Positions 15,869 to 23,082 of a stretch of DNA of 64,000 nt are shown in pieces. The stretch is from positions 1 through 64,000 of the forward strand of contig NZ_CP085337.1 in assembly GCF_020618475.1 (NCBI RefSeq), read 5' to 3'. The number at the start of each line of letters is the position of its first letter. The first letter of the stretch is position 1. The translations under genes and the position numbers were made by a program. This stretch comes from Haladaptatus halobius (lineage in GTDB: Archaea; Halobacteriota; Halobacteria; Halobacteriales; Haladaptataceae). Under the pieces are notes generated by a model. That model was not told the origin of the DNA and made no database searches. It saw nothing but the letters and a program-made list of their open reading frames with translations.

Positions 15869-15947
15869 GCGTGAAAACAGGTTCGGTATCATCGAGCGGG
15901 TTCGAACCGAAAACGGAAAGAACAGTCGGTCTGATCGTAACCCCACC

Positions 15948-15969
15948 CACCCCTTGCACCGAGTGAAAT
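15948..15969 (-). repeat. Origin recognition box-like repeat 2
   Basis: The minus strand reads TTTCACTCGGTGCAAGGGGT followed by GGGTGGGG, the longest G-string of the left group. Confidence 0.78.
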
Positions 15970-16016
15970 GGTTCTGGTGATTCCCGTCGGTTAGAGCGGG
16001 TTACGCGAGTGGCGGA

Positions 16017-16038
16017 CACCCGTCAAACCGAGTGAAAA
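16017..16038 (-). repeat. Origin recognition box-like repeat 3
   Basis: The minus strand reads TTTTCACTCGGTTTGACGGG followed by TG. The core is intact; the G-run is interrupted. Confidence 0.7.
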
Positions 16039-16426
16039 CATTATCCGACCGACTTAGAACTCGTTCTCTTATCCTCGGGTCGAGTACACTTTCGTTTATT
16101 CCTTCCCGTACTGTCTCTAACCCTCGATTTCTGTATTTTGTCTTCAATTTCTGCGTTTTTATAAACTCTGTGTGATTTCATTCAGTTCTCCACTATTCGA
16201 AGCAACTCCCTAGTCACCCTAATTTCTCGTCAGACACATTCCCCTAGTTATCTAATCGCCCCGATTCTTCATCTCCTTAGCTATCCAACGAATCTCAACC
16301 AGATTCTAGTCATTTTACCAACTACTTCCGATCATTTTTTAACCGCTTATTTGCTCGTCTACTTTCACGAAACAAAACGATCCTAATACTTTTGACGATT
16401 TCTTCGCTAGCTGGTTGGGGCTGTCT

Positions 16427-16455
16427 TAAATATATTATATATATTTAACTGTATA
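16427..16455. other. AT-only core of the putative DNA unwinding element
   Basis: An almost uninterrupted A/T run (TAAATATATTATATATATTT at about 16428-16447) in the middle of the origin region. It is preceded by roughly 330 bases in which one strand is nearly free of G. Easy melting is expected here. Confidence 0.65.
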
Positions 16456-16608
16456 GGCAAACAAAACAACACAGTAAATAGTAGATTAGCTAGAAGCAGC
16501 GGTTAGATACCAGTATAGAAAGTGAAGTTTCCTGGGGATGTATTTCTTTATAGGTGGTTTCGGTCCTACCCGATTCGAGTTGATTCCACACTCGCCCCTC
16601 GAACTGAA

Positions 16609-16633
16609 TTTCACTCGGTGCGAGGGGTGGGGG
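16609..16633 (+). repeat. Origin recognition box-like repeat 4
   Basis: Plus-strand TTTCACTCGGTGCGAGGGGT followed by GGGGG. It is the inverted counterpart of repeat 2, with the fullest G-string. A partial reverse copy (CGCCCCTCGAACTGAA) lies just left, at about 16592-16608. Confidence 0.78.
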
Positions 16634-16697
16634 ATGTCCAACATCTATACTCTCGAAAACTCATCTTCAAAGCTCGAGAACGAGGAATCTAACGCAA

Positions 16698-16717
16698 TTC
16701 ACTCGGTTCGAGGTCGG
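16698..16717 (+). repeat. Origin recognition box-like repeat 5, in the orc1 promoter
   Basis: TTCACTCGGTTCGAGGTCGG lies immediately before the TATA-like TTTTATC and 37 bases from the orc1/cdc6 start. The placement suggests that Orc1 bound here could repress its own gene. Confidence 0.72.
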
Positions 16718-16753: not shown

Positions 16754-18127
16754 ATGACCGACGCGGAGGAGAACGAGGGTTCCGCTAGTGAAGTAGGTTC
16801 CACTAGCGAAGCAAGTTCCCAGAAAACAGATCGAGACGGTGATTTACGCGAATTCGGTGACAAACCGCCGACCTCGGACGAATCCTCCGACGCGGATAGC
16901 TCCGCTTCGGCCTCTACGAGCGATTCCGATGACCTTGCGGATCCGTTTGCTGTTGGTGATATCTTCGCCCGCGAGGAGTTGTTGCGTGTGGGATACGTCC
17001 CCGACCGCGACCGTATCATCGGTCGTGACGACGAGATTCGGGCGGTCGGGAAAGCGCTTGGCCCGGCCGTTCGTGGAGGGCCACCGCGAAATCTGCTTCT
17101 ATACGGGAAAACTGGAACCGGGAAGTCGCTCGTCTCGAAACACATGGCCTTCGAAGCTCAAGACCGGGCGCAACGCAACGACGTCCACCTTATCCACCAA
17201 TACCTCGATTGTTCTAACGACGACACGGAGACACGAGCGGCTCGGGAGCTCGCGCTCGGCGTCCGCGATACGCTCGACCCCGACCTTGAGATTCCGCGGA
17301 AAGGTATCGGGGCGGCCGAATACTTCCGCCACTTGTGGGATATGCTCGACGATCACAAGGTTCGCTCGCTCATCGTGATCCTCGACGAGGTCGATAAACT
17401 CGACGGTGACGACGACATACTCATGACGCTCTCGCGGGCGGAAGAGACGGGCAAGACCAACTCCTACGTCGGTATCATCGCCATCAGTAACAAGATTCAG
17501 TACCGAGAAACGATCGGCGAGCGCGTCGACTCGTCGCTTCAAGACCGTGAGTTCGTGTTCCATCCCTACGACGCGAATCAGCTCCGACACATCCTCGAAA
17601 ATCGTCGAGACGCGTTTCACGAGAACGTTCTCTCCGAAGACGTAATACCGAAAGTTGCGGCACTCGCCGCACGAGAGCACGGTGACGCGCGAAAGGCGAT
17701 CGATATCCTCCGCTACGCGGGTGCAATCGCCGAAGAATCCGGAACGTCCGAGGTGTTAGGTGAACATATCGATAGTGCGATGGAACGAGCGGAGGCCGAT
17801 CGATTCGCTGAACTGGTGTCCGGAAGCACCCCACACGTGAAATTCATCCTCATTGCGCTCGCATCGCTGACGAGAAATCGTGATGAGGAGGAGTTCGCCA
17901 AACAGGACATTTACACGGCCTACAAGACGGTCTGTGAGAACGAAGGCTCCGATCCGATTTCGTGGGATCGCGTGTCCCGACTCCTGAAAGAACAGTCGTT
18001 CCTCGGGATTACCGAGAGTCGCCACACTGGCGGCGGATACGAAAAGGGCAGTTACCGGGTACATTCGTTGAATCGAGATCCGGAAATCGTCCTCAAAGCG
18101 CTGAACTCCGGAGCAGATCCGATTTAA
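16754..18127 (+). CDS. orc: Orc1/Cdc6 family replication initiator
   Basis: A 457-residue AAA+ initiator. About 60 acidic, Ser-rich residues precede the domain. Walker A GKTGTGKS is at 118-125 and Walker B LIVILDEVD at 206-214. Sensor-like and arginine-finger elements follow (GIIAISNKI, ARKAIDILRYAG), and the last 90 residues form a winged-helix DNA-binding domain ending near RLLKEQSFLGITESR. It should bind the surrounding origin boxes and load the MCM helicase. The acidic extension is longer than in many Orc1/Cdc6 proteins, a common feature of plasmid-borne haloarchaeal copies. Confidence 0.95.
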   Translation: MTDAEENEGSASEVGSTSEASSQKTDRDGDLREFGDKPPTSDESSDADSSASASTSDSDDLADPFAVGDIFAREELLRVGYVPDRDRIIGRDDEIRAVGKALGPAVRGGPPRNLLLYGKTGTGKSLVSKHMAFEAQDRAQRNDVHLIHQYLDCSNDDTETRAARELALGVRDTLDPDLEIPRKGIGAAEYFRHLWDMLDDHKVRSLIVILDEVDKLDGDDDILMTLSRAEETGKTNSYVGIIAISNKIQYRETIGERVDSSLQDREFVFHPYDANQLRHILENRRDAFHENVLSEDVIPKVAALAAREHGDARKAIDILRYAGAIAEESGTSEVLGEHIDSAMERAEADRFAELVSGSTPHVKFILIALASLTRNRDEEEFAKQDIYTAYKTVCENEGSDPISWDRVSRLLKEQSFLGITESRHTGGGYEKGSYRVHSLNRDPEIVLKALNSGADPI

Positions 18128-18247
18128 CCGGCGTAGATTTCTCGCTTTAGCTTTCTACTTTGCGTGTTCTGTCGACGTCTTTTAGCGGTCTTAATCAATA
18201 GGACTGAATTGTTTGTCTGTGCAGTTCTGTTGGATAGATTGACTACG

Positions 18248-18336
18248 AAGTAATACTGGTCACATTATCCGAACAGTAGTACTGGCTATATTACCTTTCA
18301 AGTAATATTGGACAGAGTGTGTGTGGGGCAATACTG
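18248..18336. repeat. 26-bp-phased CAGTAnTACTG repeats, cluster 1
   Basis: Four copies of an 11-bp palindrome, consensus CAGTAnTACTG, start at 18248, 18274, 18300 and 18326, exactly 26 bp apart. The second, CAGTAGTACTG, is a perfect palindrome. The fourth keeps only the right half (AATACTGG). Further loose copies follow at 18336, 18375, 18388, 18414 and 18449; 18388 and 18414 are again 26 bp apart. They are probable binding sites for a partition or copy-control protein, given their position between orc1 and parA. Confidence 0.75.
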
Positions 18337-18664
18337 GTTGATACTGCTGCCGGATGTGGCCACATTCAGTTGTCCAGTACTCCTGTTCAATAATACTGGT
18401 TAGTTTTACTACCCAGTGTTATTATAATTTCTGTTCGAAACCACAGCTCAGTCATACCAGAAAGTATAATCGATGGGGCTGGACGGCATTTTCATTCGAG
18501 GTGCACCCTGTTTCGGCTGAACTAGGCCGAGCGATTTCGCCGTCGGGACGTCGACTGGAAAACGCAACAACGGATCACGAGAGCGTCGAGGAACTGCCAA
18601 CTCGGAACTCTCATCCTAGTCAACTGCACTGATCAGTCAGACTGGATAGTTCCGTCGTACTCAA

Positions 18665-18701
18665 CAGTATTACTGAATAGTTTATCCATCCAGTGTTACT
18701 G
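18665..18701. repeat. 26-bp-phased CAGTAnTACTG repeats, cluster 2, parA-proximal
   Basis: CAGTATTACTG (18665-18675, perfect palindrome) and CAGTGTTACTG (18691-18701) keep the 26-bp spacing of cluster 1. They end about 50 bp before the parA start, overlapping or just upstream of the TATA-like TTTTTATAC at 18722-18730. This position is suited to repression of parA. A variant, CAGTCAGACTG, lies at 18634. Confidence 0.72.
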
Positions 18702-18739
18702 GCCAGACCGTCTGACGAGTATTTTTATACATGCTGTTC

Positions 18740-18756
18740 CATGTACCCCGTACATG
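18740..18756. promoter_or_regulatory. Perfect inverted repeat overlapping the parA start codon
   Basis: CATGTAC-CCC-GTACATG has 7-bp perfect arms around a 3-bp spacer, and the second arm contains the parA ATG (18754). It lies 10-27 bases downstream of the TATA-like element, at the expected transcript start. An operator or a translation-masking hairpin is possible. Confidence 0.5.
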
Positions 18757-19623
18757 ATTTCGTACACCATCTGGTCGGAGGCTGGGGGCGTCGGAAAGAC
18801 GACGCTCTCGGTGAACCTCGCTGCGGCGCACGCGCGTCGCGGTCAAACGGTGCTCGTGATCGACATGGATCCACAGAACGGTGGGTTGACGCACCACTTT
18901 GGGGTCGAAGATCACCGTGACGATCCGGAAATCGACAATCTCGTTCGGCACATGATCGAACGACCGAAGGGTGATTTCGCCGATCTCATCGTCGAAGCCG
19001 AAGAGAATCTCGACCTCGTTCCCGGGCACAACATGCTAGAATCGCTCGAACGTAATCTGACGCGCGCGGCGCAGATGGAAGAAGACATGCACGACGCGAA
19101 CTACCGCTGGCCGAAGGAAAAGCAACTCCGACGCGTCCTGACTGACGCAGATATCCCTGCGAGCTACGACGTCCTGATTATCGACCCGCCCGCGACGGTT
19201 GGCCAGCACATTTACAACTCGATTTACGCTACGTCGAATCTCCTGATTCCGGCCGAACTTTCGGCGAAGGGGTCTCAGAGCGTCGATGGACTCCGAGACG
19301 TGGTTACGAACATCGAGGCCACGCTCGGCGATATCGAGGTCGGCGTTCTCGGTGTCGTCCCGAACAAAGTAGCGAATACGAATGTTCAGCGGGAGTACCG
19401 CGAAAAATTAGACGACCAAAACCTCCCCATTGCGCCGATCTCCATCAGGGAACGCGGATCGATGCTCGGGGATGCGTGGGACAGTCAGGTCAGTATTTTC
19501 GAACTCGCTGAGAACGACGAGTATCGTGACCTCCGTGACTACGAAAAAGAAACGCTGGAAAAACTAGACCGGCTTGCGGCGTTCATCACCGAGCAGTTTG
19601 AACAGCCGGAGGTCACAGCATGA
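18754..19623 (+). CDS. parA: ParA/Soj-family partition ATPase
   Basis: A 289-residue deviant Walker A ATPase. WSEAGGVGKTTLSVNLAAA (residues 7-25) contains the GGVGKTT motif, with Walker A' VIDMDPQNG and VLIIDPPATVG later. ParA proteins use ATP-driven nucleoid binding to segregate replicons. The gene directly follows the phased palindromes and is translationally coupled (ATGA) to the 149-residue ORF downstream, the usual arrangement of ParA with its site-binding partner. The N-terminus lacks an extra DNA-binding domain, so repression of the operon would need the partner. Confidence 0.95.
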   Translation: MISYTIWSEAGGVGKTTLSVNLAAAHARRGQTVLVIDMDPQNGGLTHHFGVEDHRDDPEIDNLVRHMIERPKGDFADLIVEAEENLDLVPGHNMLESLERNLTRAAQMEEDMHDANYRWPKEKQLRRVLTDADIPASYDVLIIDPPATVGQHIYNSIYATSNLLIPAELSAKGSQSVDGLRDVVTNIEATLGDIEVGVLGVVPNKVANTNVQREYREKLDDQNLPIAPISIRERGSMLGDAWDSQVSIFELAENDEYRDLRDYEKETLEKLDRLAAFITEQFEQPEVTA

Positions 19624-20069
19624 AGTCCGGCGCATCAGACCCGTTCGCTGATGACCCGTCGGACTCGTCCGACGCCGATGAGTCCGCCACCGGCGAGCCC
19701 ACTTCTGACGAGTCTCCTTCTGACAAATCTCCCACCGACGAAGAGGGCTCGACCGAGTCGCAGAACGACACGTTGACCGAGCAGTCTGACGAGTCAGTAA
19801 AACAAGGCAGTAATACTCATCAGATAAACCGATCGGACTTACCGCTCACGCTCCGCCGCGATAACGTCAAAGACGAACGCGAGAACGTCCATCAGCTGTT
19901 CGTTCAAGACGATACGGACGACCGTGCGAAGGACGCGGAGCGTGATTTGGAATCGATGGTCGGCGAGGATATCTACCGCCTCGACGCCCGCGAGGCGATC
20001 TATCTCGCCGGGATGCAGAATCTGGACGACGCGGCGGCCATCCTCCGTGAGTGGGGGTACGACCTGTAA
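19620..20069 (+). CDS. Small acidic protein coupled to ParA, candidate partition partner
   Basis: A 149-residue protein whose ATG overlaps the parA stop. The first 60 residues are a low-complexity Asp/Ser/Glu/Thr tail. The second half is ordered (LPLTLRRDNVKDERENVHQL, then EAIYLAGMQNLDDAAAILREWGYDL). No ParB helix-turn-helix is evident, but the location matches a ParB-like or centromere-binding role in haloarchaeal plasmids. The coding sequence itself contains a copy of the partition-type motif, CAGTAATACT at 19808. Function is inferred from position only. Confidence 0.7.
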   Translation: MKSGASDPFADDPSDSSDADESATGEPTSDESPSDKSPTDEEGSTESQNDTLTEQSDESVKQGSNTHQINRSDLPLTLRRDNVKDERENVHQLFVQDDTDDRAKDAERDLESMVGEDIYRLDAREAIYLAGMQNLDDAAAILREWGYDL

Positions 20070-20369: not shown

Positions 20370-20999
20370 ATGAGTGATAAACGCAGTTCGAGAAAGACGA
20401 GCAAGGTCCAACGAGTAATCGACGAGTACGGACTCACAGGTCTCGGTGATCGGCTCGAAGAGCATTGGCTCGGAGACGCCGACGAACAGTACAGTCTTCG
20501 CCAGCTTGCCGATCTCTTCAATCAGGAGGTGTTGCGTGCTGCTTTGACGGAAGCGGGAGTGACGACGCTCGACGGAGAGATCGAGAACACGCATCGGTTG
20601 CTGACGAGCGATGGGGTCAGTAGCGGCGTTCGAACCGAGACGGAGAACGCGCTCAAGCGCGACGGAATAGATGTCGAACGACTCAAGCAAGACTTCGTCT
20701 CCCACCAGGCCGTTCACACGTACCTCACCAAATATCGGAGCGTGAACTACGAGTCACAGGCCGACGAGCCGGCAGCTCAACTGGAGAAAGGTGCGAGCAC
20801 GATTCAGCGATTACGTAATCGCACGGCGGCGGTCACGGAGACGACACTCAACAGTCTCCGAAACACCGACCGAATCGCGCTCGGCGATTTCGAGTTGCTC
20901 GTCGACCTCCGCGTCGTCTGCAACACGTGCGGCCAGTCCTACCCCGTCGACGAACTTCTCCGGGAAGGTGGCTGTGATTGCGCCGGCGAAATCGATTGA
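20370..20999 (+). CDS. rdfA: Rod-determining factor RdfA
   Basis: A 209-residue protein matching the haloarchaeal RdfA family, named in Haloferax volcanii for its role in making rod-shaped cells. It begins with a basic Ser/Arg/Lys stretch and SKVQRVIDEYGLTGLGDRLEE, has a helical middle with a likely coiled segment (EKGASTIQRLRNRTAAV), and ends in a zinc-ribbon-like CNTC (184-187) plus CDC (202-204). The gene is followed 118 bp later by an SMC-like protein, the same pairing known from chromosomal rdfA loci. Here the pair sits beside orc1 and parA. Confidence 0.85.
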   Translation: MSDKRSSRKTSKVQRVIDEYGLTGLGDRLEEHWLGDADEQYSLRQLADLFNQEVLRAALTEAGVTTLDGEIENTHRLLTSDGVSSGVRTETENALKRDGIDVERLKQDFVSHQAVHTYLTKYRSVNYESQADEPAAQLEKGASTIQRLRNRTAAVTETTLNSLRNTDRIALGDFELLVDLRVVCNTCGQSYPVDELLREGGCDCAGEID

Positions 21000-21117: not shown

Positions 21118-23082
21118 ATGGAATTAGCGCCCGAGAATCTCGCCCAGGCCGAACTGAATGTTCAGAACATCGGTGGAATCGACGACACGGAAATCACACT
21201 TACCCCGGGCGTAACCGCCCTTACCGGGCGGAACGCGACGAATCGAACGTCGTTGCTCCAAGCCATCATGGCGGCGCTCGGGAGCAACCAGTCGTCGCTC
21301 AAAGGCGACGCGGACGAAGGGCGGGTCGAACTGACCGTCGGTGACGAAACGTACACGCGGACGCTGACGCGACAGGATGGAACGGTCGTAACGGGCGGCG
21401 ATCCGTATCTCGATGACCCTGAACTCGCGGATCTCTTCGCATTCCTACTGGAATCGAATGAAGCTCGCCGCGCGGTCGCGCGCGGCGACGACCTGCGCGA
21501 ACTCATCATGCGTCCCGTGGATACGGAGGCGATTCAGGCCGAGATCGACCGAGTGAAAGCCGAAAAGCAACGACTCGACGAGGAACTCGACGAACTCGAC
21601 TCGCTCAAGCAACGACTCCCTGGTCTCGAAGAAGAACGGACGCGCTTGGAGAAAGAGATAGAGGAAAAACAGGCCGAACTTCAGTCGAAAGAGGCCGAAC
21701 TGGAAGCCGCCGACGCGGATATCGGCGAGACACACGCGGAAAAGGCCGAACTCGAGGAGAAGCTCGAAGAGCTACGCGACACTCGGTCGCGCCTCGAAGA
21801 CATTCGATTCGACATCGAAACCGAAGAAGAGAGCATCGACGCGTTGGAAACCGAAGTTACGACGCTCGAAGCGGAGCAGGCTGAACGCTCCGACACTCCG
21901 GATGGAGAGGCCGAACGGCTCGCGGATCAGATCCAACAACTGCGCGAACAGAAACAACGGCTCGACTCAACGATGTCCGAGCTCCAGACTGTCATCCAGT
22001 TCAACGAAGAGATGTTGGAGGGGACGAGTCCCGAGGTGGTTAGCGCGCTCCAGTCGAACGACGAATCCACGTCCCACTCGAACGAGTCCGTCACCGACCA
22101 GCTCGTGGCCGACGCGGAGACGGTGGTCTGCTGGACGTGCGGAACGGAGGTCGAAAAACAGGAGATCGAAGGAACGGTCGAACAGCTCCGCGAGTTCCGG
22201 AAGGAACAGGCCGCCGAGCGAAACTCGATAGATTCGGAGATCTCCGATCTCAAAGACGAAAAACAGGATCTCGAGGAGACGCGACGCCAGCGTGAGCAGA
22301 CGGAACAGCGACTTCGTCAACTCGAATCGGAACTCGACGAGCGCGAGACTCGTCTCGGCGAACTCCGCGAGACGCGAACCGAACTCACCGACGAGATCGA
22401 ACGGCTCGAACAGGAGGTCGAAGAACTCGAACAGGAAGAGTACAGTGAAGTTCTGGACATCCACAAGGAAGCGAACCAACTCGAATTCGAACTCGGACGG
22501 CTCGAATCCGACCTCGACGATGTCGAAGCGGAGATTACCACCATCGAATCTCGACTCGCCGAAGAAGACCAGCACGAAACTCGACGAGAGGAGATCAAAG
22601 AGGAACTGGCGAGTCTCCGCACCCGAATCGACGAGATCGAAGCACAAGCGGTCGAACAGTTCAACGATCACATGGCGACCGTACTCGACTTGCTCGACTA
22701 CGCGAATCTCGAACGCATCTGGATCGACCGCACCGAACGAGAGGTTCGAGAGGGGCGGCGGAAGGTCACGAAGAGCGTGTTCAACCTACACGTCGTCCGA
22801 AGCACGGAGTCGGGGACGACCTACGAGGACACCATCGACCACCTCAGCGAGAGCGAGCGAGAGGTCACCGGTCTCGTGTTCGCACTCGCGGGATATCTCG
22901 TCCACGATGTCTACGACCGAGTCCCGTTCATCCTGTTGGACTCGCTCGAGGCGATAGACTCCGATCGCATCGCGCAGATCGTCGAATACTTTAGCGACTA
23001 CGCCGGTTACCTCGTTGCCGCACTACTGCCCGAGGACGCCGCCGCTCTCGACGACAAACACGAACGAGTGACCGAAATCTAA
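21118..23082 (+). CDS. Archaea-specific SMC/Rad50-related coiled-coil protein
   Basis: A 654-residue protein with head domains at both ends and heptad-rich Glu/Leu/Arg coiled coil from about 140 to 560. The N-terminal head has TGRNATNRTSLLQAI (36-50) where Walker A should be, with Arg in place of the invariant Lys. The C-terminal head has PFILLDSLEAID in the Walker B/D-loop position. A CWTC motif near 338-341, in the middle of the coil, resembles the Rad50 zinc hook. It is half the size of a true SMC. A role with RdfA in cell shape or DNA segregation is inferred from pairing and fold. Confidence 0.88.
   Translation: MELAPENLAQAELNVQNIGGIDDTEITLTPGVTALTGRNATNRTSLLQAIMAALGSNQSSLKGDADEGRVELTVGDETYTRTLTRQDGTVVTGGDPYLDDPELADLFAFLLESNEARRAVARGDDLRELIMRPVDTEAIQAEIDRVKAEKQRLDEELDELDSLKQRLPGLEEERTRLEKEIEEKQAELQSKEAELEAADADIGETHAEKAELEEKLEELRDTRSRLEDIRFDIETEEESIDALETEVTTLEAEQAERSDTPDGEAERLADQIQQLREQKQRLDSTMSELQTVIQFNEEMLEGTSPEVVSALQSNDESTSHSNESVTDQLVADAETVVCWTCGTEVEKQEIEGTVEQLREFRKEQAAERNSIDSEISDLKDEKQDLEETRRQREQTEQRLRQLESELDERETRLGELRETRTELTDEIERLEQEVEELEQEEYSEVLDIHKEANQLEFELGRLESDLDDVEAEITTIESRLAEEDQHETRREEIKEELASLRTRIDEIEAQAVEQFNDHMATVLDLLDYANLERIWIDRTEREVREGRRKVTKSVFNLHVVRSTESGTTYEDTIDHLSESEREVTGLVFALAGYLVHDVYDRVPFILLDSLEAIDSDRIAQIVEYFSDYAGYLVAALLPEDAAALDDKHERVTEI

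Follow-up and report, generated by a model that had tools for sequence, protein, structure and literature searches.

A recurrent array of 13-bp palindromes beside haloarchaeal parA genes as the probable centromere and operator of a plasmid partition module

The window analysed here is a stretch of 64,000 nucleotides of Haladaptatus halobius, at the start of an 816-kb contig within a nine-contig genome of 7.3 Mb. Its parA gene (18754..19623, forward strand) lies downstream of an orc1/cdc6 replication initiator gene (16754..18127, forward strand), and is followed by an orphan gene for a small protein of 149 amino acids (19620..20069, forward strand), which overlaps parA by 4 bp. The next neighbours, both on the forward strand, are rdfA of the rod-determining factor A family (20370..20999), whose order is kept in a Haladaptatus salinisoli plasmid, and a gene for an archaea-specific SMC-related protein, ASRP (21118..23082). 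Their relatives rdfA and sph3 are described as required for the rod shape of Haloferax volcanii (PMC10869688). The only other RdfA match of the genome lies on the same contig, at ∼513 kb. No match to ParB, the CTPase/HTH protein of classic ParABS systems, was found among the five genes tested, from orc1 to the SMC-related gene.

A probable replication origin (15946..16713, no strand assigned) precedes orc1 and consists of inverted, origin-box-like repeats with G-runs around an AT-rich stretch. The repeats lie at 15946-15969, 16017-16037, 16608-16631, and 16695-16713, have the core TTCACTCGG, and carry the G-runs on the outer pair. They look like the haloarchaeal origin recognition boxes, for which a G-string is mentioned in PMC3528665.

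The product of parA (289 amino acids) is short and has no N-terminal helix-turn-helix extension: the P-loop, SEAGGVGKTT, occupies residues 8-17 at the extreme N-terminus, and the AAA_31 profile matches from residue 7. The signature lysine of the deviant Walker A box (KGGxGK[T/S]) is absent, and KGG occurs in none of 180 ParA loci, compiled from two partly overlapping sets. The GGxGK box is preceded by A in 159 of these loci and by S in 8; the remaining boxes comprise 11 with ESGG and a variant box, one cut by a contig end, and one divergent sequence. A normal KGG box is present in nine further ParA/MinD-type genes of the genome. The presumed parA promoter (18710..18729, forward strand) is composed of a GTCTGAC box (18710-18716), which here precedes the parA start by 44 bp, and a TATA-like element, TATTTTTATA (18720-18729). 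Iterated repeats are present at the promoter of the par operon, where they are a candidate centromere.

The sequence-only reading had described palindromes of the form CAGTAnTACTG in non-coding DNA upstream of parA, starting at 18248, 18274, 18300, 18326, 18388, 18414, 18665, and 18691. Copies are recognizable at all eight positions, but only those at 18274 and 18665 are exact. One mismatch is found at 18248, 18388, and 18691 and two at 18300, while direct reading shows three at 18326 and three at 18414, which are half-sites. The palindromes are genuine and not a product of chance. When as many as two mismatches are allowed, the window contains 25 matches against 8.35 expected, a count reached by none of 100 dinucleotide shuffles, and 9 of the 25 start within 18196-18691. 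A scoring matrix built from ten orthologous plasmids only, with the window left out, placed 18 positions of 18131-18745 above the 99.9th percentile of the window, where 0.61 are expected. The exact palindrome occurs at eight places in the whole genome, two of them within the array.

Three groups of sites, none assigned to a strand, make up the array. Group 1 (18196..18351) advances in 26-bp steps from 18196 through 18222, 18248, 18274, and 18300 to 18326, with degenerate units between. Group 2 (18375..18474) starts with contiguous units at 18375, 18388, 18401, and 18414 and has further sites at 18423, 18449, and 18462. Group 3 (18634..18716) has sites at 18634, 18665, 18678, 18691, and 18704 and reaches into the parA promoter. 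The array therefore exceeds the interval first reported for it, by 18196 and 18222 on the left and into the parA promoter on the right, and it has additional units at 19782-19846 within the next gene. A single register is not kept across the groups, as the step from 18326 to 18388 is 62 bp.

Spacing was scored as autocorrelation over the 560 bp before parA. The 26-bp spacing of the sequence-only reading is a genuine signal (z 6.0 at lag 26), but it is not the unit: the unit is 13 bp, with an equally strong score at lag 13 (z 5.8). Units in 13-bp steps are visible at 18375/18388/18401/18414 and at 18665/18678/18691/18704, and every second unit of the window array is often degenerate. A 26-bp unit was rejected because lag 13 is as strong in the window and, on average, stronger among relatives. 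Protein binding on alternating faces of the DNA, a claim derived from the 26-bp unit, loses its basis with it. The DNA helix has 10.5 bp per turn; 13 bp correspond to ∼1.24 turns, so that proteins on neighbouring units would wind round the helix.

The small protein has a conserved MKSG..DPF N-terminus, an acidic linker, and a conserved C-terminal domain (∼residues 72-149). It is a ‘hypothetical protein’ in both database records opened, and the window copy matched no Pfam and no NCBIfam model. An alignment of 43 members gave weak, scattered matches, the best at 0.00045 in Pfam (one member) and 0.0054 in PHROGs (two members). The best PDB sequence match was a copper ATPase with an E-value of 0.13, which was judged to be chance. 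The full-length AlphaFold2 model has high confidence solely in the C-terminal part, and the linker, modelled with low confidence, is probably disordered. The C-terminal domain modelled alone reaches a pLDDT of 91.8 and has an extended segment followed by helices at 30-47, 53-66, and 68-77. This helix order after an extended segment resembles that of ribbon-helix-helix proteins, in which the strand pairs only in the dimer, and on the strength of the model the domain may be ribbon-helix-helix-like. The top Foldseek matches were TCP domains of plant transcription factors, which are themselves ribbon-helix-helix-like, with best E-values of 3.4 for the full-length protein and 1.8 for the domain. 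A profile comparison of the small protein with 14 RHH_1 proteins of the genome was not significant.

Related loci were collected in two sets that overlap in part and hence are not independent: 97 loci with homologous parA genes from the genome of the window, its family, and its class, and a named set of 83 loci, 78 of which have at least 560 bp upstream and were used in the array test. A script located a small gene directly 3′ of parA in 93 of 97 and 83 of 83 loci, and one that it missed (G001) was seen by eye. The small genes have ∼108-245 codons, and the 4-bp overlap with parA is usual. The GTCTGAC box recurs at ∼−42 across lineages with differing array words. It is present at 63 of 97 loci, compared with 2 of 485 control windows further upstream, and at 38 of 81 loci, compared with 1 of 399. 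The closest plasmid relatives by parA are from Haladaptatus, Halomicrococcus, and Halorussus. Three IMG/VR contigs (L232-L234) also contain the pair of genes, which may be used by some viruses or plasmid-like elements.

A search upstream of other haloarchaeal parA genes, which the sequence-only reading had proposed as a check and whose failure would have counted against it, showed that the 13-bp periodicity recurs beside related genes. Compared with 457 flank controls, 78 of 97 loci and 49 of 78 loci of the named set exceeded the 99th percentile, and 48 and 20, respectively, exceeded the control maximum. Over the 97 loci the mean z was 4.18 at lag 13, 3.68 at lag 26, 3.02 at lag 39, and 2.09 at lag 52, while the other lags from 4 to 60 had means between −0.65 and 1.41; those above 1 (lags 4, 9, 30, 35, and 48) are multiples of 13 offset by 4 or 9. 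The strongest lag was 13, 26, 39, or 52 in 74 of 97 loci. In 110 control windows z at lag 13 had a mean of −0.90 and a maximum of 1.85. No 13-bp array was present upstream of the nine other ParA/MinD-type genes of the genome, where the z sum over three lags did not exceed 3.3, compared to a control 99th percentile of 5.58. One of these genes (L238) had a z of 2.4 at lag 13 (99th percentile 2.32) and nothing at lags 26 or 39.

No clear array was found within 560 bp upstream of parA in 19 of 97 and 29 of 78 loci. A full-length scan of 39 of these 48 below-threshold loci, using a score without a null distribution, showed that several have their best array elsewhere. Plasmids of Natrinema, Natronolimnohabitans, and relatives have it within the small gene, whereas in Haloarcula it lies 3′ of that gene; the latter include the pHH400 locus of H. 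hispanica, with its small gene at NC_015944 23272-23655. At the G001 locus the array lies ∼1.8-2.0 kb upstream of parA. The same scan gave no convincing array near parA in other loci, such as those of Halarchaeum (L167-L168) and a chromosome-type group. The chromosome-type paralogues of parA and the small gene (L121, L130-L132, and L140) have no upstream 13-bp array; three of these five peak at lag 12 (z 3.0 to 6.0), and the small proteins of the group start with MTDDRYG or MSDDRYG.

The repeated word itself was derived from a 13-bp tandem model fitted to 178 loci, the 180 ParA loci less two that were too short. Passing the fit cut (gain above 65) and a small-protein filter left 97 loci, fits below the cut giving unreliable words, and 71 remained for correlation after near-identical small proteins were dropped. 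The words vary by plasmid lineage, with examples such as CAGTnnTACTG in the window, TCTGTnACAGA, TATAGCTATA, ATCTTAGAT, TTCA-type, TAGnCTA, TTACTA-type, and TGGCTnAGCCA. The genome of the window alone has eight parA copies of this kind with at least five distinct words, and when the word of the C4 plasmid was searched for as a two-unit pattern, every match lay next to the C4 parA. Across the 71 loci, motif distance correlated with small-protein distance (r 0.638), and the correlation persisted when made partial on ParA (0.389, with a null maximum of 0.108 in 2000 permutations). The reverse partial correlation, with ParA when the small protein was held constant, was 0.215 (null maximum 0.129). 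The word thus tracks the small protein better than ParA, and ParA is a possible contributor, since its partial correlation also exceeds the null maximum. In an exploratory ranking of residues, in which kinship was addressed solely by a between-clade run, positions 90/92/94 ranked first among 77 alternating triplets as predictors of the word, likewise between clades only, and residue 84 was the best single predictor beyond overall distance. Alternating residues of this kind are the pattern expected of a DNA-facing strand.

The 13-bp units are also found inside the small gene. In the window, units at 19782, 19795, 19808, 19821, and 19834 (19782..19846, no strand assigned) lie in the part that codes for the linker. 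Against the reversed-matrix control this intragenic array passes with four units (30.4 compared to 28.7) but fails with three (22.4 compared to 22.8). Synonymous shuffling was applied to 21 loci picked from the lineage of the window and its relatives. In 11 of the 21 loci, no more than 3 of 300 shuffles attained as much motif as the N-terminal and linker region contains; the same cut was passed by one of 21 C-terminal domains and none of 21 parA genes. Three of the loci (L167, L170, and L171) had no intragenic motif excess in these shuffles. At a Halorussus locus (L142) an in-frame array encodes a 13-residue protein repeat, because three 13-bp units equal 13 codons.

Satellite arrays occur elsewhere on the plasmid. 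A matrix scan, restricted to the 816,114-base contig of the window (C3), identified three mini-arrays at 287.05, 683.06, and 753.33 kb besides the main array, all above the reversed-matrix control maximum with two, three, and four units. Judged from lists of open reading frames of at least 120 codons they appear intergenic, with a short, doubtful frame entering the 753.33-kb array. The other contigs were covered by pattern search. With three mismatches, a two-unit pattern gave 27 and 15 matches in the whole genome against 17 and 14 for the reversed control, a modest excess; at two mismatches, one place lies on contig C2 and the rest on C3. The two-unit pattern, again at two mismatches, was located at 32 distinct places in six orthologous genomes. 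Of these places, 25 are on the contig bearing parA, and 7 of the 25, spread over four of the six orthologous plasmids, lie more than 10 kb from parA. The control pattern had 6 matches in these genomes, compared to 50 strand-wise matches.

From the computed features, namely the array, its 13-bp unit and recurrence, the covariation of word and protein, the intragenic units, and the satellites, we infer binding, the fold of the binder, repression, stimulation of ParA, and partition. We consider it highly probable that the array is the centromere and, at its right end, probably the operator of a ParA-type partition module with the small protein as its predicted binder. The sequence-only reading had arrived at a centromere/operator whose site-binding protein is not a classic ParB; both parts are supported, the former as a reading of the array and the latter with the 19620-20069 product as the most likely binder. 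Dimers of this product would bind each 13-bp palindrome via a two-stranded ribbon (residues ∼90-94) and an arm residue near 84; loaded side by side, one every 13 bp, they would wind round the DNA along the array. Once bound there, the small protein would stimulate the product of the preceding parA gene, perhaps through its own conserved N-terminus, and in this way the plasmid would be tethered to the nucleoid and its copies distributed. At 18665-18716 the small protein would also repress the parA promoter, so that the operon would be autorepressed. Because the word is specific to a plasmid lineage, several plasmids of this type could coexist in a cell.

Other roles for the array were considered. 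Were it an operator alone, the small protein would repress parA and the genes near satellites and have no role in plasmid movement. Autorepression is usual for type Ib modules, and the array does abut a parA promoter with a conserved GTCTGAC/TATA box. However, 18 strong positions over ∼500 bp are more than an operator needs, the 13-bp units continue within the small gene, the Haloarcula array sits 3′ of that gene, and the C3 satellites lie between genes and not clearly at promoters, all of which makes a purely regulatory array unlikely. The sequence-only reading had named iterons of a copy-control system as its alternative; such repeats, whether they serve replication or copy control, would be bound by Orc1. 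Iteron plasmids typically carry regular repeats close to their initiator gene, and orc1 adjoins the array in the window. Set against this are the separate inverted origin-box-like repeats with G-runs upstream of orc1 (15946-16713), which point to a probable origin distinct from the 13-bp array; moreover, in the upstream DNA covered, a match to the Orc1 of the window was absent for 53 of 60 strong arrays and for 33 of 34 (very divergent orc genes could escape this search), and the word tracks the small protein. Iterons are accordingly disfavoured, and we regard them as very improbable.

The array might also be read by ParA itself or by an unrelated host factor, leaving the small protein as an accessory activator. 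The partial correlation of the motif with ParA distance (0.215) agrees with such a reader, as does the unproven DNA-binding fold of the small protein in the RHH_1 profile comparison and the Foldseek search. Yet the small protein is the better predictor of the word, its best triplet alternates like a DNA-reading strand, and at least five words in one genome are hard to reconcile with a single host factor, so that we give this explanation very little credence.

A bolder proposal, which we hold to be slightly better than an even bet, is that these loci form a haloarchaeal partition family in which the centromere lies partly inside the gene of its own binder, satellites are placed round the megaplasmid, the word is read by positions 84/90/92/94, and ParA works without the signature lysine. 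If this is true, incompatibility groups would be predictable from sequence via residues 84, 90, 92, and 94, a testable rule that connects amino acids with the DNA word and, through it, with plasmid compatibility. A centromere array that doubles as coding DNA would offer a clear example of overlapping selection. Haloarchaea are polyploid and rich in megaplasmids, and the inheritance of these plasmids is little understood. The module is a widespread and concrete candidate with named genes and sites, including those of pHH400 in the tractable Haloarcula hispanica. Review texts describe SegAB and pNOB8, both from Sulfolobales (PMC9178275, PMC5120986). Among the top-ranked matches of a search in open-access literature, no description of such a module was found.

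Among known systems, the archaeal plasmid pNOB8 is partitioned by AspA, ParB, and ParA, and its DNA binder is described as able to spread helically on DNA (PMC5120986). That system has three proteins with a winged-helix AspA, whereas the module described here has two, and no winged-helix or ParB match was obtained for the partner of parA. The lack of a signature lysine is shared with McdA, a chain of which matches the ParA profile at 5e-13, with Soj chains higher. McdA acts in carboxysome positioning; it positions a protein compartment and is not known to use a centromere. It is listed as a ParA-family ATPase without the signature lysine, with the box SGGQGKT, in a review table (PMC9178275).

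Short repeats are a feature shared with the well-studied type Ib-like partition system of pSM19035, where they are bound by a ribbon-helix-helix protein; that system is bacterial with 7-bp repeats, whereas the present one is archaeal with 13-bp repeats. The ParA of pSM19035 has the signature lysine. Ribbon-helix-helix proteins of the pSM19035 type were absent among the PDB sequence matches of the small protein. The ParB of this family is reported to need four or more contiguous repeats for ParA activation (PMC9499535). The chromosomal SegAB system of Sulfolobales is alike in combining a ParA-type ATPase with a small site-binding protein. Structures of SegB are present in the PDB, and SegB was absent among the PDB sequence matches and structure matches of the small protein up to an E-value of 10. 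SegB is described as a ribbon-helix-helix protein that binds both a 13-bp palindrome located upstream of segA and dispersed sites, most of them within genes (PMC12284271, PMC9178275). As presented there, the SegB sites are palindromes scattered over the chromosome with one largely conserved word, in contrast to the head-to-tail arrays found here. Two type Ib features, a short ParA free of an N-terminal helix-turn-helix extension and iterated repeats at the operon promoter, are present in the module described here. The present module is not filed as type Ib, because the signature lysine is missing and the fold of the binder is unproven. By analogy, it would nevertheless work like a type Ib system, with SegB as its nearest archaeal parallel.
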